Assembly (NCBI RefSeq): GCF_014651595.1
Contig: NZ_BMXE01000005.1
Coordinates: 248,001-312,000 of the forward strand
From: Pseudovibrio japonicus
GTDB lineage: Bacteria; Pseudomonadota; Alphaproteobacteria; Rhizobiales; Stappiaceae
Length of the DNA stretch: 64,000 nt
Direction of reading: 5' to 3'
Below are positions 9,456-15,192 of this stretch, one piece after another (within the stretch, counting starts at the first letter, position 1; each line of letters starts with the position of its first letter). The notes under the pieces were generated by a model. That model had not been told where the DNA came from. It worked only from the letters and a program-made list of their open reading frames with translations, and searched no databases. A program made the position numbers and the translations under genes.

Positions 9456-10241
9456 ATGAACTGTAAGGTGATGAAACTCGTTGTGGCCGTGAGCACAGCG
9501 CTGGCAAGCACTATGCCATTGGCAGCAATGGCGCAGGGCGTTGAGTCCGTTGAGCTGGGCGCAGCTCCTGGTGCGGGCTTGTCCTATATCTCGCTCTTTA
9601 TGGAAGCAGACATTGTCGTCAAGCTGGTGATGATCGGTCTGATTGCTGCTTCTGTATGGAGCTGGGCGATTATCTTTGACAAGATCGTCCTTTATTCCCG
9701 TTCCCGTCGCCAGATGAGCCGTTTTGAGAACGTGTTCTGGTCCGGTCAGTCTCTTGAAGAGCTGTATAAGTCCTTATCATCGCGCGCAAACAACGGTATG
9801 TCCGCCTTGTTTGTGGCGGCGATGCGTGAATGGAAGCGCTCCCACGAAGGTGAGCACCCTGCGATTGCCAGCCTGCAGCAGCGTATCGACCGTGTGATGG
9901 ATCTGACCATCTCCCGCGAAGTTGAACGTCTTGAGAAGCGTCTGTTGTTCCTTGCGACCATCGGCAGTGCGGCTCCGTTTGTCGGCCTGTTTGGTACGGT
10001 TTGGGGCATCATGAATGCGTTTACTTCCATCGCCGCTTCAAAGAACACGAACCTTGCTGTTGTGGCACCGGGTATTGCCGAGGCGCTTTTTGCGACCGGT
10101 TTGGGCCTGATTGCCGCTATTCCGGCGGTTATTGCCTATAACAAGCTACAGAGTGACTCCGGGAAGCTGGCTGCGCGCATGGAAGGGTTCGCAGACGAGT
10201 TTTCTGCAATCTTGTCCCGCCGTATCGATGAGCGAGCATAA
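9456..10241 (+). CDS. tolQ: Tol-Pal proton channel subunit TolQ
   Basis: A 261-residue MotA/ExbB-family inner-membrane protein. With TolR it forms a proton channel that energises TolA during outer-membrane constriction at division. Three membrane segments are visible: ~54-74 (VVKLVMIGLIAASVWSWAII), ~164-187 (LFLATIGSAAPFVGLFGTVW) and ~205-230 (ALFATGLGLIAAIPAVIAYN). The GTVWGIMNAF motif is conserved. Unusually, an extra N-terminal segment (residues 1-27, MKLVVAVSTALASTMPLAAMAQ) resembles a cleavable signal peptide, making it longer than the usual ~230 residues. An AGAGG lies upstream of ATG 9456. tolR starts 3 bp after the stop. Confidence 0.94.
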   Translation: MNCKVMKLVVAVSTALASTMPLAAMAQGVESVELGAAPGAGLSYISLFMEADIVVKLVMIGLIAASVWSWAIIFDKIVLYSRSRRQMSRFENVFWSGQSLEELYKSLSSRANNGMSALFVAAMREWKRSHEGEHPAIASLQQRIDRVMDLTISREVERLEKRLLFLATIGSAAPFVGLFGTVWGIMNAFTSIAASKNTNLAVVAPGIAEALFATGLGLIAAIPAVIAYNKLQSDSGKLAARMEGFADEFSAILSRRIDERA

Positions 10242-10244
10242 CCC

Positions 10245-10700
10245 ATGGGTATGAGCACAGGAGCGGCCGGTGGTGGACGTGCAGGCGGCAGACGTGGTCG
10301 TCGCAGGCACTCTCATGCACCGATGAGCGAGATCAACGTAACGCCGATGGTGGACGTGATGCTGGTGCTGCTGATCATCTTTATGGTGGCGGCTCCCTTG
10401 CTGACAGTTGGCGTGCCGATTGATCTGCCTGAAACCCGCGCTAAGGCGATGGAAGGCGATACCGAGCCGATAGCGATTTCGGTGAAGTCTGACGGGGCCG
10501 TGTACATTCAGGACACTGAGATCCCGGTTGATGAGCTGATCGCGAAACTCGGGGCAATTGCCGAGAATGGTTACAACGAGCGTATCTATGTGCGCGGTGA
10601 TCAGGACGCTGATTATGGGATCATCATGAAAGTCATGGGCCAGATCAATGCTGCCGGATACAAGCGCATTGGGCTCGTCACTCTAGAGGAGCAGGGTTAA
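10245..10700 (+). CDS. tolR: Tol-Pal proton channel subunit TolR
   Basis: A 151-residue ExbD-family protein. A basic cytoplasmic N-terminus (GGRRGRRRHSH) is followed by MSEINVTPMVDVMLVLLIIF, with the membrane Asp proposed to carry protons, and a periplasmic domain of about 95 residues ending LVTLEEQG. The Gly/Arg-rich N-terminal extension of ~25 residues is typical of alphaproteobacterial TolR. It follows tolQ by 3 bp and precedes tolA by 6 bp, so tolQRA are a tight operon. Confidence 0.95.
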   Translation: MGMSTGAAGGGRAGGRRGRRRHSHAPMSEINVTPMVDVMLVLLIIFMVAAPLLTVGVPIDLPETRAKAMEGDTEPIAISVKSDGAVYIQDTEIPVDELIAKLGAIAENGYNERIYVRGDQDADYGIIMKVMGQINAAGYKRIGLVTLEEQG

Positions 10701-10706
10701 CCGGGA

Positions 10707-11645
10707 ATGCGTGCAGGCCTTATCGCATCGCTAGTTGTTCACGTGGTCGTGCTTGTTGCCGGAGCGGTGTCGCTCAATTTCGGCAAAGAGTTGGTCACGA
10801 CCCCGGTGGATTCACTGCCTGTGGATCTGGTGCCCGTCAGCGAGCTAACCAAGCTGCAGCTGGGTACAACAGAGGCGAAGGAAATCAAAGAAGCTGCGTT
10901 GCAGCCAACCAAGAAGCCTGCAGAGAAGCCAGAGCCGGAGAAAAAGACCGGTGAAGCCAAGAAAGAGGTGAAGAAGGTTCAGGAAGCCGCGAGGGAAGTG
11001 CAGCAGGCAGAAGCGCCGCCGCCGCCTCCACCTGAACCTGCGGAACCAGAGCCAGCCCCAAAGGAACAGCCAAAAGAGAAGGCTCCTGCGGAAACTGCAG
11101 AACTTGGTCCTGAGGTAGAGAAAGTCGAAGAACCGAAGAAACTCGTCACCGTTCGTCCTCGCACCAAACCGACTCCTCCAGCGCGCCCAAAGGTGGAAAA
11201 GAAGGAAGAGCCGAAGAAAAAGGACGACTTCAATACGAAGATGGCGGCTTTGCTAAACAAGACCAATGAGAAGTCGAGCGGGACTGCAAAGTCCACCAAA
11301 CCGGCTTCCCTCGGGTCTGAACAGGGTCATACCAACGTGACGATGAGCCAGTCTGAACTGGACGCGCTTCGCGGGCAGGTCGCACAGTGCTGGAACCCTC
11401 CTATGGGGGCAGCTGGAGCGGAAGATCTGACCGTTCGTCTACAATTCAACCTGAGCCGCACCGGTGAGGTTGAGGGGCAGACGCGGGTGCTGAACTCAAG
11501 CAATAACCCTGCATTCAACGCAGCTGCAAGCAGTGCAGAGCGCGCAGTTTACCGCTGTGGTCCGTATTCTCTGCCAGCGGCGAAGTATGAAGCATGGGAA
11601 ACAGTTATCCTGAATTTTGATCCTCGCGAGATGCTTGGATACTGA
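10707..11645 (+). CDS. tolA: Envelope integrity protein TolA
   Basis: A 312-residue bitopic protein linking the TolQR motor to TolB/Pal at the outer membrane. One membrane helix at ~7-24 (ASLVVHVVVLVAGAVSL), a long Lys/Glu/Pro/Ala-rich periplasmic domain at ~60-185 with a proline run (PPPPPPEP), then a globular domain III at ~215-312. Domain III keeps two cysteines (QCWNPP and RCGPYSLP) that in E. coli TolA form a disulfide, and ends FDPREMLGY. That last domain is duplicated in the next gene. Starts ATGCGTGCAGG six bases after tolR. Confidence 0.92.
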   Translation: MRAGLIASLVVHVVVLVAGAVSLNFGKELVTTPVDSLPVDLVPVSELTKLQLGTTEAKEIKEAALQPTKKPAEKPEPEKKTGEAKKEVKKVQEAAREVQQAEAPPPPPPEPAEPEPAPKEQPKEKAPAETAELGPEVEKVEEPKKLVTVRPRTKPTPPARPKVEKKEEPKKKDDFNTKMAALLNKTNEKSSGTAKSTKPASLGSEQGHTNVTMSQSELDALRGQVAQCWNPPMGAAGAEDLTVRLQFNLSRTGEVEGQTRVLNSSNNPAFNAAASSAERAVYRCGPYSLPAAKYEAWETVILNFDPREMLGY

Positions 11646-11655
11646 CGGAGTGGCT

Positions 11656-12066
11656 ATGGAAATGGAGCGAGCTGGCAAGGCAGGTAAGGTTAGGATTGGG
11701 CTGGGCCTGATGCTCTCTGGAGGCGTTCTGGCTGGCTGCAGCGTAACGGGCGGGGTTGGCTATTTCACCTTCTCTACGGACGGTGAGGAAGTCGCGGCTC
11801 TTCGTAATCAAGTTGCTCGTTGCTGGGTCCCTCCGCTCAACGCTGATGAAGAGGTCCAGCTGCGCTTCGATCTTAACCGGTCAGGAGAGCTTGTAGGAGT
11901 TCCAACGGTATTGAGCTCGGGCACTACGCCTGAGGACGAGGCCGTCGAAGATAGTGCAGTGAGAGCTCTAGTTCGCTGTGCGCCATATTCCCTTCCGGCT
12001 GAAACGTATGAGTCTTGGAAGACGATTACACTGAGTTTTGATCCTCGCGATTTGCGTGGATACTAG
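11656..12066 (+). CDS. Lipoprotein carrying a free-standing TolA domain III
   Basis: A 136-residue protein not part of the standard tol operon. A short N-terminus leads to a lipobox (LAGCSVTGG, Cys at ~29); the residue after Cys is Ser, so Lol sorting to the outer membrane is expected. The rest matches TolA domain III of the upstream gene: ALRNQVARCWVPP against ALRGQVAQCWNPP, RCAPYSLPAETYESW against RCGPYSLPAAKYEAW, and FDPRDLRGY against FDPREMLGY. Both cysteines are kept; I estimate 40-45% identity by eye. ATG 11656 is preceded by GGAG at 11647-11650, ten bases after the tolA stop. It probably arose by duplication of the tolA 3' end. A partner for TolB or Pal, or a TolA competitor, is inference. 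Confidence 0.85.
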   Translation: MEMERAGKAGKVRIGLGLMLSGGVLAGCSVTGGVGYFTFSTDGEEVAALRNQVARCWVPPLNADEEVQLRFDLNRSGELVGVPTVLSSGTTPEDEAVEDSAVRALVRCAPYSLPAETYESWKTITLSFDPRDLRGY

Positions 12067-12094: not shown

Positions 12095-13459
12095 ATGTCC
12101 TTTGTGATGGGGCTTAACCCAAAGCGTACAACAGGAATCAAACAGCTGTGGCGTCGTGCGTGCGGCCTTGTGGCTGCTGTAGTTGCTGTTGCTGCGATCT
12201 CTCAACCTGCATACGCCCTGATTGAGCTTGATATTACTCAGGGCAACGTTGAACCGATGCCGATTGCAATCTCTCCCTTTGCTGGCTCCGGCGTGCAGGA
12301 AGATATGGCGGGGCAGATTTCTGAAGTGGTTGCCGCTGATTTGCAGCGCTCTGGGCTGTTCCGGCCCATCGACAATGCAGCGCATATCCAGCAGGGCATG
12401 AACGTTGGCACTATGCCGCGCTTTGGTGACTGGAGAACCATCGGCTCTCAGGCTTTGGTGACCGGTTCTATTGCGCAGCAGCCGAATGGGCAGATTCGCG
12501 CGGAGTTTCGGTTGTGGGATGTGTTTGCAGGTCAGCAGCTGATCGGCCAGCAGTTCTACACCTCACCTGAGAACTGGCGCCGTCTGGCGCATATCATTTC
12601 TGATGCGGTTTACCAGCGTCTGACGGGTGAAAAGGGCTACTTTGATACTCGTGTTGTCTTCATTGACGAGAGCGGTCCAAAGGATGCTCGCCGGAAACGT
12701 CTGGCGATTATGGATCAGGACGGCGCGAATGTGCGGTATCTGACACGTGGTGATGATCTGGTGCTGACACCGCGGTTCTCTCCTGTGTCACAGGAAGTCA
12801 CCTACATGTCATATGTGGGCGGTAATCCGCAGGTTTACCTGTTCAACATCGAGACCGGACAACGTGAAGTTCTGGGCAACTTCCCCGGTATGACGTTTGC
12901 GCCGCGCTTTTCGCCGGATGGCCAGAAGGTGATCATGAGTTTGCAGCAGGGCAGCAATGCGAACCTCTATCTTATGGATCTGCGGACACGCCGGACAACC
13001 CGTCTGACTAATACGGCTGCGATTGATACCAGCCCGTCCTTCTCTCCCGATGGACGCCGGGTGGTGTTTGAGAGTGACCGTGGCGGCTCGCAGCAGCTTT
13101 ATGTGATGAATGCGAATGGCAGCGGTGCGGAGCGTATCTCCTTTGGGCCGGGTCAGTATTCCACACCTGTGTGGTCTCCTCGCGGTGACTTGATTGCCTT
13201 TACCAAGGTGCACCAGGGCCGCTTCATGATCGGCGTTATCCGTCCTGACGGTAAGGGGGAACGTATCCTCACAGAGGGTTATCACAATGAGGGACCAGCC
13301 TGGTCTCCAAACGGGCGTGTCCTAACCTTCTTCCGCGATACGATGGGTGAACAGGGTGGACCTCAGGTCTGGACTGTTGATCTGACCGGCTACAACGAAC
13401 AGGTGGTTCAGACACCAAACTTTGCATCAGATCCAGCGTGGTCACCGCTGCTCGACTAA
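12095..13459 (+). CDS. tolB: Tol-Pal translocation protein TolB
   Basis: A 454-residue periplasmic protein that binds Pal and TolA. A signal peptide with a long n-region ends near AISQPAYA (~45), followed by the mature N-terminus that contacts TolA ([21 protein letters not shown]), an N-terminal alpha/beta domain to ~190 and a six-bladed propeller with repeated FSPDG-type PD40 motifs ([51 protein letters not shown]). Lies 28 bp after the TolA-like lipoprotein gene and is followed by a stem-loop before pal. Confidence 0.95.
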
Positions 13460-13601: not shown

Positions 13602-14084
13602 ATGTCAAAGACACAGTTCGCGCGCGGAGCGCGTTTTGCCGCTGTCGTGGGTCTGTGCCTCGTTGCTGCAGCTTGTGCGCAGACGCGCCCTGAACTTAAT
13701 GGGACTAATAGTTCCGTTGCGGCTGGCTCCGGCCAGGACTTCGTTGTGAATGTTGGGGATCGTGTATTCTTCCTGAACAACCAGAGTTCTCTTAGTGCTG
13801 CTGCTCGCGGTGTGCTCGACAAGCAGGCCCGTTGGCTGGAACACTACAAGAACTACTCTATCACGATTGAAGGTCACGCTGATGAGCGCGGCACCCGCCA
13901 GTACAACATTGCACTGGGTGCACGTCGTGCTTCTGCTGTTCGGGAATACCTTGTTGCTAAGGGCATTGACCCGTCCCGCATCAAGACAATCTCTTACGGT
14001 AAAGAGCGTCCGGTTGCAGTATGTAACGCGGCTTCCTGTTGGAGTCAGAACCGTCGTGCTGTGACCGTTCTGAATGGTCAGTAA
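13602..14084 (+). CDS. pal: Peptidoglycan-associated lipoprotein Pal
   Basis: A 160-residue outer-membrane lipoprotein that binds peptidoglycan and TolB. The signal peptide ends in VAAAC (lipid Cys ~25). The OmpA-like domain follows, with the ITIEGHADERGTRQYNIALG peptidoglycan-binding motif and the arginine-rich GARRASAVREYL helix. The C-terminus has a cysteine pair (VCNAASCW) seen in alphaproteobacterial Pal. GGGACAGGAGATT lies just upstream of the ATG. Followed by a terminator. Confidence 0.95.
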   Translation: MSKTQFARGARFAAVVGLCLVAAACAQTRPELNGTNSSVAAGSGQDFVVNVGDRVFFLNNQSSLSAAARGVLDKQARWLEHYKNYSITIEGHADERGTRQYNIALGARRASAVREYLVAKGIDPSRIKTISYGKERPVAVCNAASCWSQNRRAVTVLNGQ

Positions 14085-14139: not shown

Positions 14140-14301
14140 CTGATCAAACTCCTGCACAGTTGTGGGAGAACTGGAATTGGCCGGGGAGAAGCCGCAAATA
14201 GGCGAGAAACACTGAGTTTGTGCCCTATTTTCGTCTTTTCCTCTTGCCAAGAGATGAGAAGATCCGACCCGGACTCTTAAGGGTGTCTCAGGAGAAAATT
14301 G

Positions 14302-15192
14302 ATGGCTCTTTACCGACGTATTGCAACAGGTGTTGTTGTTCTGGCGATTGCAACCTCTACAAGTTTACCTGCGTCTGCGCAGCTGTTTGGCGGTTCCAAA
14401 AATCAGGAAACTGCTCAAAATACTGCACGTCTTGGTCAGCTTGAGGAGCAAATTCGTCTGCTGACAGGCCAGGTTGAAGAGCTCAATCATAAGCTGCGGC
14501 TGACAGAAGATCAGTTGCGCCGCTCACGGGAAGATGTGGACTATCGTTTGCAACAGTTGGAGAACCCGGGGCAGACGCCACGTGTTGTTCAGCCTCCTGT
14601 TGTTGAAGCGCCAAACACCGCTCCTCCTGCTGATCGTAGCCAGCAGCTTTCTACGCTGAACACTCCGGCACAGGGCACCAATGGCGGGCCGCTTGACCTT
14701 TCCCAGATCGCACGTGGCAATACGACTGCTTCTACGGGATCAACAGCTGCTGCGCCGGGCTCTGGCACACTGCAGTTTTCCGGAAGTGTAAACTCGCTAC
14801 TGACTGGTGAGCCAACAGCGGACTATAATGCGATTTATGGCTTGATGGTTGATGGCAACTACCCGGCTGCCACCGAAGGGTTTGATACTTTTGTGGGTAT
14901 GTATCCGGACCACGAGCTGACTGCAAATGCACAGCATTGGCTTGGCGAAAGCCTGTTGGCGCAACGTCAGTACGAGAGTGCGGCACAGGCCTTCCTGAAG
15001 AGTTATGCTGATTTTCCCGAGAGTGAGTTGGCTCCCGAGAGCTTGCTGAAACTGGGTACTGCCCTTACAGGTATGGGGAATGCGTCCGCTGCCTGTGAAA
15101 CCTATGAGCAGCTTCTCGCTACTTTCCAGTTTGCAGCACCAGCTGTGCTGGAGCAGGCCAAGGCTCAGCAAAAACGTGACAACTGCGTCTAA
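14302..15192 (+). CDS. cpoB: Cell division coordinator CpoB (YbgF)
   Basis: A 296-residue periplasmic protein coordinating peptidoglycan synthesis with Tol-driven constriction. A signal peptide ends near SLPASAQ. A coiled coil at ~40-90 (LGQLEEQIRLLTGQVEELNH...) drives trimerisation, then a Pro/Thr/Gly-rich linker, then TPR repeats from ~175 (YNAIYGLMVDGNYPAATEGF, HWLGESLLAQRQYESAAQAF, LKLGTALTGMGNASAACETY). ATG 14302 is preceded by CAGGAGAAAA. Its end overlaps the probable tilS start. Confidence 0.92.
   Translation: MALYRRIATGVVVLAIATSTSLPASAQLFGGSKNQETAQNTARLGQLEEQIRLLTGQVEELNHKLRLTEDQLRRSREDVDYRLQQLENPGQTPRVVQPPVVEAPNTAPPADRSQQLSTLNTPAQGTNGGPLDLSQIARGNTTASTGSTAAAPGSGTLQFSGSVNSLLTGEPTADYNAIYGLMVDGNYPAATEGFDTFVGMYPDHELTANAQHWLGESLLAQRQYESAAQAFLKSYADFPESELAPESLLKLGTALTGMGNASAACETYEQLLATFQFAAPAVLEQAKAQQKRDNCV

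Follow-up and report, generated by a model that had tools for sequence, protein, structure and literature searches.

The gene between tolA and tolB

The Tol machine pulls the bacterial outer membrane inward at division, and the system is usually drawn as a set of fixed parts in which the force acts through one TolA. In a stretch of 64,000 nucleotides from Pseudovibrio japonicus (contig NZ_BMXE01000005.1, positions 248,001 to 312,000 of the forward strand, hereafter the window), the tol operon contains an additional gene on the forward strand (11656..12066; ATG at 11656, stop codon at 12064-12066) whose 136-residue product seems, as judged from its sequence, to be an exported, motorless copy of the grasping domain of TolA, i.e. 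of its domain III (DIII). A first-pass annotation of the window had let the element begin at 10979, which lies inside tolA (10707-11645), but its description of the location was accurate: ten bases separate the tolA stop codon (11643-11645) from the ATG of the free-standing DIII gene, and 28 bases lie between the stop codon of the latter and tolB (12095). The GGAG at 11647-11650, five bases upstream of the ATG, is likely its ribosome-binding site. The operon features are the following:

9456..10241, forward strand: tolQ (Pfam MotA_ExbB, E 8.7e-37)
10245..10700, forward strand: tolR (Pfam ExbD, E 7.9e-30)
10707..11645, forward strand: tolA, 312 amino acids (Pfam TonB_2 at residues 221-291, above cut-off; operon position)
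11337..11642, forward strand: DIII of TolA (alignment; 49% identity to the free-standing copy)
11647..11650, forward strand: GGAG, likely ribosome-binding site of the free DIII gene (sequence)
11656..12066, forward strand: free-standing TolA DIII lipoprotein gene, 136 amino acids (sequence, TIGR02794, predicted fold)
11656..11739, forward strand: signal sequence and lipobox LAGC, Cys28 codon at 11737-11739, Ser at +2 (by eye)
11785..12063, forward strand: DIII fold of the lipoprotein, residues 44-136 (AlphaFold2 model, PDB matches)
12095..13459, forward strand: tolB (TIGR02800, E 5.8e-144, above cut-off)
12218..12253, forward strand: predicted TolA box, first 12 residues of mature TolB (sequence, comparison of TolB N-termini; cleavage after AYA inferred)
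13602..14084, forward strand: pal (TIGR02802, E 8.3e-40, above cut-off)
14299-15192: gene of CpoB (YbgF), after pal (named by position)

The match between the free DIII and the DIII of the neighbouring TolA is, at the sequence level, far beyond chance (E 2.7e-26), and the alignment retains both cysteines (C56 and C108), the PYSLPA and FDPR blocks and the C-terminal last strand, which is present as TLSFDPR. The TolA model of NCBIfam (TIGR02794) aligns with residues 47-130 over its positions 282-362 (E 3e-8), with a score of 33.3 bits that falls below the curated cut-off of 59.45 bits. Scans against Pfam and NCBIfam at E up to 1 gave matches to TonB_2, TOBE_2, TolA and TonB only, and an OmpA peptidoglycan-binding domain was not found in them. 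Most of the database protein hits carry the precomputed accession PF27683. At the N-terminus, a positively charged, hydrophobic signal (MEMERAGKAGKVRIGLGLMLSGGVLAGC) precedes the lipobox L25-A-G-C28, both judged by eye. The composition that the first-pass annotation had described, a LAGC lipobox followed by a TolA DIII with both cysteines, PYSLPA and FDPR, is thus borne out by the frame, the alignment and TIGR02794. Lipoprotein sorting follows a rule based on Asp at position +2; the residue following Cys28 is Ser and not Asp, and the lipoprotein form would probably be lipid-anchored at the inner face of the outer membrane.

An SHLS-like motor-binding motif is not seen by eye in this protein, whose N-terminus is the signal that ends in LAGC, and as it has no transmembrane anchor, the contact to the motor is absent. 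There is also no periplasm-spanning domain II, with just 15 residues between Cys28 and the first DIII helix, which starts at residue 44. The AlphaFold2 model (helix 44-56, strands 67-73 and 79-87, helices 92-108 and 115-121, strand 123-128, helix 130-133) folds as TolA DIII in PDB fold comparison, which answers in the affirmative the structural comparison that had been suggested in the first-pass annotation. A profile sequence search of the PDB returned no TolA entry and just two chance-level chloroplast proteins; it was the fold comparison that matched TolA. The first-pass annotation had known of no described Tol component of such kind, and none was found in a literature search that subscription papers largely escaped; the accessible part of a survey of proteobacterial tol operons mentions no free DIII gene (PMC12204202). 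The novelty seems to lie in a known domain that takes a new motorless and exported form within its own operon, and that was invented more than once.

Distribution in the family and probable exchange of a cassette

Among 87 genomes of the family, the free-standing copy was detected in four, always between tolA and tolB: in the genome of the window (G000) and in G021, which are two of the 16 members of the genus, and in G008 and G009, which are two of five Pannonibacter genomes. In all 14 members of the genus that do not have the gene, the short gap between tolA and tolB was directly seen. The frame is therefore not a conserved part of the lineage; its absence from close relatives had been named in the first-pass annotation itself as evidence against the proposal. 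The lipoprotein form that it had described holds for the window, and G021 likewise has a lipobox (LSGC, by eye; its protein is identical to a database protein from Pseudovibrio sp. Ad37), but other carriers mostly differ from this form: in the Pannonibacter copies, the signal-like start is not followed by a lipobox (by eye), and these proteins should be soluble.

G021 is sister to G023, which does not have the gene, and G000 branches elsewhere with weak support. The tolA genes of G021 and G013 share 96.8% identity over the 666 bases before the DIII core and only 62.5% over the 267-base core, and the region after the lipoprotein gene of G021 again matches the region after tolA of G013 in 297 of 300 bases; with G023, the respective values are 97.3%, 61.8% and 291 of 300 bases. 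These identities come from codon-wise comparison, as a plain DNA alignment had put the extra gene inside DIII, thereby mixing windows of TolA and of the lipoprotein. The foreign block has sharp edges and covers the TolA DIII core and the lipoprotein (L032, 4641-5376), while the rest of the tol operon is nearly identical. Synonymous divergence (dS) between G021 and G013 is 1.67 for TolA DIII and 0.09 for TolB, and the nearest relative of the G021 TolA DIII among the 87 family genomes is 70% identical. The low identity of the core between near-identical flanks and the contrast in dS indicate that the DIII of G021 came in from an unsampled relative, most simply together with the lipoprotein.

Downstream of the tolA stop (TAG GTATTGAG...), the eight non-carriers of the genus that are closest to the genome of the window have the bases that in carriers follow the lipoprotein gene, and not those that follow tolA there. 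If the gene had been lost through recombination of one DIII copy with the other, such bases would be expected, and equally so after a duplication that moved the stop.

Recurrence beyond the family

The search of the order covered 397 genomes, with at most ten candidates scored in each; outside the family, the 51 genomes with two or more matches were searched again, and the loci of promising ones were read. Including the four family members, at least 12 of the 397 genomes encode, between tolA and tolB, a DIII protein whose start is of the export type. The eight carriers outside the family (G433, G171, G463, G109, G453, G379, G290 and G358) belong to five families; the copy of G171 has a lipobox (LLGC), and the remaining seven begin with an ordinary signal-like sequence (by eye; uncertain for the start of G358). 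A second DIII between tolA and tolB was found in none of 80 other loci of the order, which were the best listed TolA rows and not a random draw. In a sample of 123 genomes of the class, G544 from another order encodes a protein with a LAGC lipobox, the gene of which overlaps with the stop of tolA at one end and with the start of tolB at the other; the protein matches the DIII profile with E 3.4e-11, Pfam below cut-off only, and no NCBIfam model. Further second matches in this sample were those of G520 and G529, outside the loci that were read in context, and one of G502, which is on a different contig from that of TolA. Outside the class, two species of one genus (G589 and G595; among the matches listed for 150 genomes of the phylum) encode between tolA and tolB proteins of 420 and 445 residues, respectively, which begin signal-like and contain three DIII-type domains with linkers in between (L188 3215-4477 and L189 2907-4244). 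These score above the TolA family cut-off, and their domains are 25-34% identical to one another and to the TolA encoded next to them.

The free DIII gene is located directly before tolB in all 15 carriers. In the present genus the copies would be lipid-anchored, and most other carrier lineages apparently have soluble forms. As the arrangement recurs in other families, in another order and outside the class, a selected role is more likely than could be known from the window, and as these patchy additions in other bacteria arose more than once, an unpowered grasping domain seems to be repeatedly useful.

Outside the tol operon, too, there are small DIII-like proteins that have starts of the export type, namely in G326 (L093 2135-3025, two in a row), G342 (L094 2091-2471), G420 (L095 2157-2597), G383 (L098 1937-2431), G445 (L099 2390-2881) and G502 (L186 1484-1969). 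Some neighbours of such copies (pfkB, PEP mutase, proline racemase, phosphoesterase) revealed no common theme. Two metagenomic free-standing DIII proteins (P0018 and P0031) have a VAGC lipobox and perhaps belong to a further lipoprotein lineage.

Origins and selection

Trees were calculated from 61 DIII rows, 15 free and 46 others, a set without G544 and the triple-DIII proteins. The idea of one ancient orthologous family had to be rejected: forcing all 15 free rows together costs 67 log-likelihood units, with a p-value of 0.00083 in the approximately unbiased test (p-AU), to be taken with caution, as there are long branches among the rows and the first quick tree had been at hand when the group was defined. 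In a further test, one clade of the three lipobox lineages was rejected more weakly (p-AU 0.031), and a grouping of the G544 copy with its own TolA was neither established nor rejected (p 0.41). In the trees, G379 and G171 have their copies placed beside their own TolA (99/98 and 100/90), and those of Pseudovibrio group with Pseudovibrio TolA (87/92, not starred). A tree that unites the Pannonibacter copies and the Pannonibacter TolA has a slightly better fit than the unconstrained one; the Pseudovibrio-like and Pannonibacter copies were joined in the quick tree (92) and not in the careful one, and a single clade of both was not rejected (p 0.41). The own TolA is the best-scoring one among 62 TolA DIII for only five of 12 copies. 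More than one origin is well supported by these sequence comparisons; the number of origins is unsure, because there are few columns and long branches.

The pairwise ratio of nonsynonymous to synonymous substitution rates (dN/dS) of the free copies is 0.27 for G008/G009 and 0.32 for G000/G021, or 0.18 and 0.21, respectively, if only the mature part is taken; the values for G000/G021 are rough as their dS is about 1. For TolA DIII, values are 0.035 (G008/G009), 0.11 (G000/G013) and 0.05 (G023/G013), with 0.21 and 0.15 in comparisons that involve the foreign DIII of G021, and for TolB 0.02-0.05. The free copies thus look as if they are kept by selection, under a constraint that, at least in Pannonibacter, appears looser than that of TolA.

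Could the gene simply be a relic, i.e. a tandem duplicate of the tolA 3' end that drifts and is often lost? The patchy presence and the post-stop bases of the eight nearest non-carriers would agree with this, but dN/dS of 0.18-0.32, frames that by eye are intact with export-type starts in the carriers, and more than one origin speak against it, and we regard a relic as very improbable. A further idea is that the duplicated DIII found a new partner and takes the beta-strand of another envelope protein, such as a TonB-type transporter, CpoB or a lipoprotein, thereby serving as passive outer-membrane adaptor. The divergence from TolA DIII at a dN/dS still well below 1 and the existence of DIII-like exported proteins off the tol operon would suit such a role, but the position directly before tolB in every carrier indicates the Tol system itself, and we judge a new partner to be rather unlikely.

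A proposed passive competitor of TolA

On the basis of what was computed here, i.e. the gene, its predicted fold, its export-type start, its operon position, its recurrence and its low dN/dS, we propose, tentatively and at somewhat less than even confidence, that the free DIII is a passive binder of TolB that acts as a rheostat of Pal mobilisation. When TolA DIII is exported in E. coli, it disturbs the Tol system there. According to the accessible literature, TolA DIII uses its last strand to bind the N-terminus of TolB weakly, and in E. coli TolA, prolines introduced into beta3 at D418 or K420 disrupt the interaction with TolB and cause a tol phenotype (PMC4339652, as far as accessible). Of the contacts to TolB and Pal that the first-pass annotation had ascribed to DIII, a direct one to Pal is disputed (PMC7391070, in the part available). 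By analogy, the free DIII would bind the free N-terminal TolB strand by beta-strand addition just like TolA DIII, but would pull on nothing. As the TolB N-terminus is reportedly buried in the complex of TolB with Pal (PMC8928145, accessible part), the passive domain would be expected to favour TolB off Pal and near the membrane; Pal would be freed to bind the cell wall, and the demand on energised TolA would be altered. A short lipid tether on the membrane of Pal could make even a weak affinity count. Lipidation in vivo, the binding of the free DIII to TolB and the effect on Pal are what we infer in this proposal.

A specific pairing of DIII and TolB finds an echo in the family. Genomes with an aberrant TolA DIII (G028, G003, G001 and G070; loci L048, L049, L050 and L051, respectively) also have a changed TolB box, V/I-x-GGN and not ITQG, and the four family carriers have the ITQG box. 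This suggests that both halves of the DIII-TolB contact were switched together, which fits a specificity between box and DIII.

Several points weigh against a passive TolB binder. The gene is patchy within genus and family and thus dispensable. If DIII can hold TolB on Pal in a ternary complex, a passive copy need not release Pal, and the release step of the model would be weakened. In G008/G009, the dN/dS of the copy (0.18-0.27 vs 0.035 for TolA DIII) fits a drift to other partners; in G000/G021 the copy and TolA DIII are alike (0.21 each), with the TolA DIII of G021 being foreign. A special retention of the TolB-binding strand was not borne out either: the conservation difference between the C-terminal part and the rest is 0.156 on average, only slightly higher than the 0.114 (standard deviation 0.101) of the TolA-TolA control, and in two of 12 copies (G290 and G358) the C-terminal part is less alike than the rest.

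Instead of tuning TolB, the free DIII could be a decoy receptor: by binding the tip proteins of phages or the translocation domains of bacteriocins, which otherwise would grip TolA DIII, it would block entry. In the periplasm, g3p and colicins target TolA DIII (PMC7391070 and PMC4339652, accessible parts), the patchy distribution and the joint arrival of TolA DIII and lipoprotein in G021 as a foreign block would fit such a role, and a soluble protein with three DIII domains would be well matched to a multivalent ligand. In PHROGs, three free DIII copies had no matches to phage families at E up to 1. The Zot family PF05707 is a marker of filamentous phages. It is present in none of the 15 carriers (12 + 3) and in three of 46 comparison genomes (1/41 + 2/5), which leaves a link to these phages via zot unsupported; a missing prophage is weak evidence in either direction, and bacteriocins of these hosts were not searched for. 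We consider a decoy rather unlikely.

Taking the passive TolB binder beyond the window, the motorless DIII may be a repeatedly invented Tol component, an un-energised competitor of TolA in lipid-anchored, soluble or triple-domain form that tunes TolA-TolB engagement and the deployment of Pal, with the pair of TolA DIII and lipoprotein being exchanged between strains as a cassette; this wider view is possible but doubtful at present. If true, an un-energised partner-binding domain from the same operon would be a natural competitor and hence a built-in control of outer-membrane constriction; if the decoy were true, it would be a new type of entry decoy. Either way, the regulation of TolA-TolB engagement would become directly testable via a small, deletable gene.

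Comparison with known systems

The closest known systems include, besides Tol proteins, the C-terminal domain of TonB. Like Pal, the free DIII is encoded by a small lipoprotein gene in the same operon and has no Asp at +2; unlike Pal, it has no OmpA domain detectable by Pfam or NCBIfam, and pal is a separate gene at 13602-14084. CpoB is a tetratricopeptide repeat (TPR) protein, the fold of which is unrelated to that of the free DIII. Both have in common that they are accessory Tol proteins predicted as lipoproteins in some lineages and not in others, in case of CpoB in 20% of 70 proteobacterial sequences (PMC12204202, accessible part). Most similar is domain III of TolA itself (PDB 1lr0, 6s3w, 2x9a), with which the free DIII shares the predicted fold, both cysteines and the C-terminal strand, but in place of the transmembrane anchor and domain II it has a lipobox signal.
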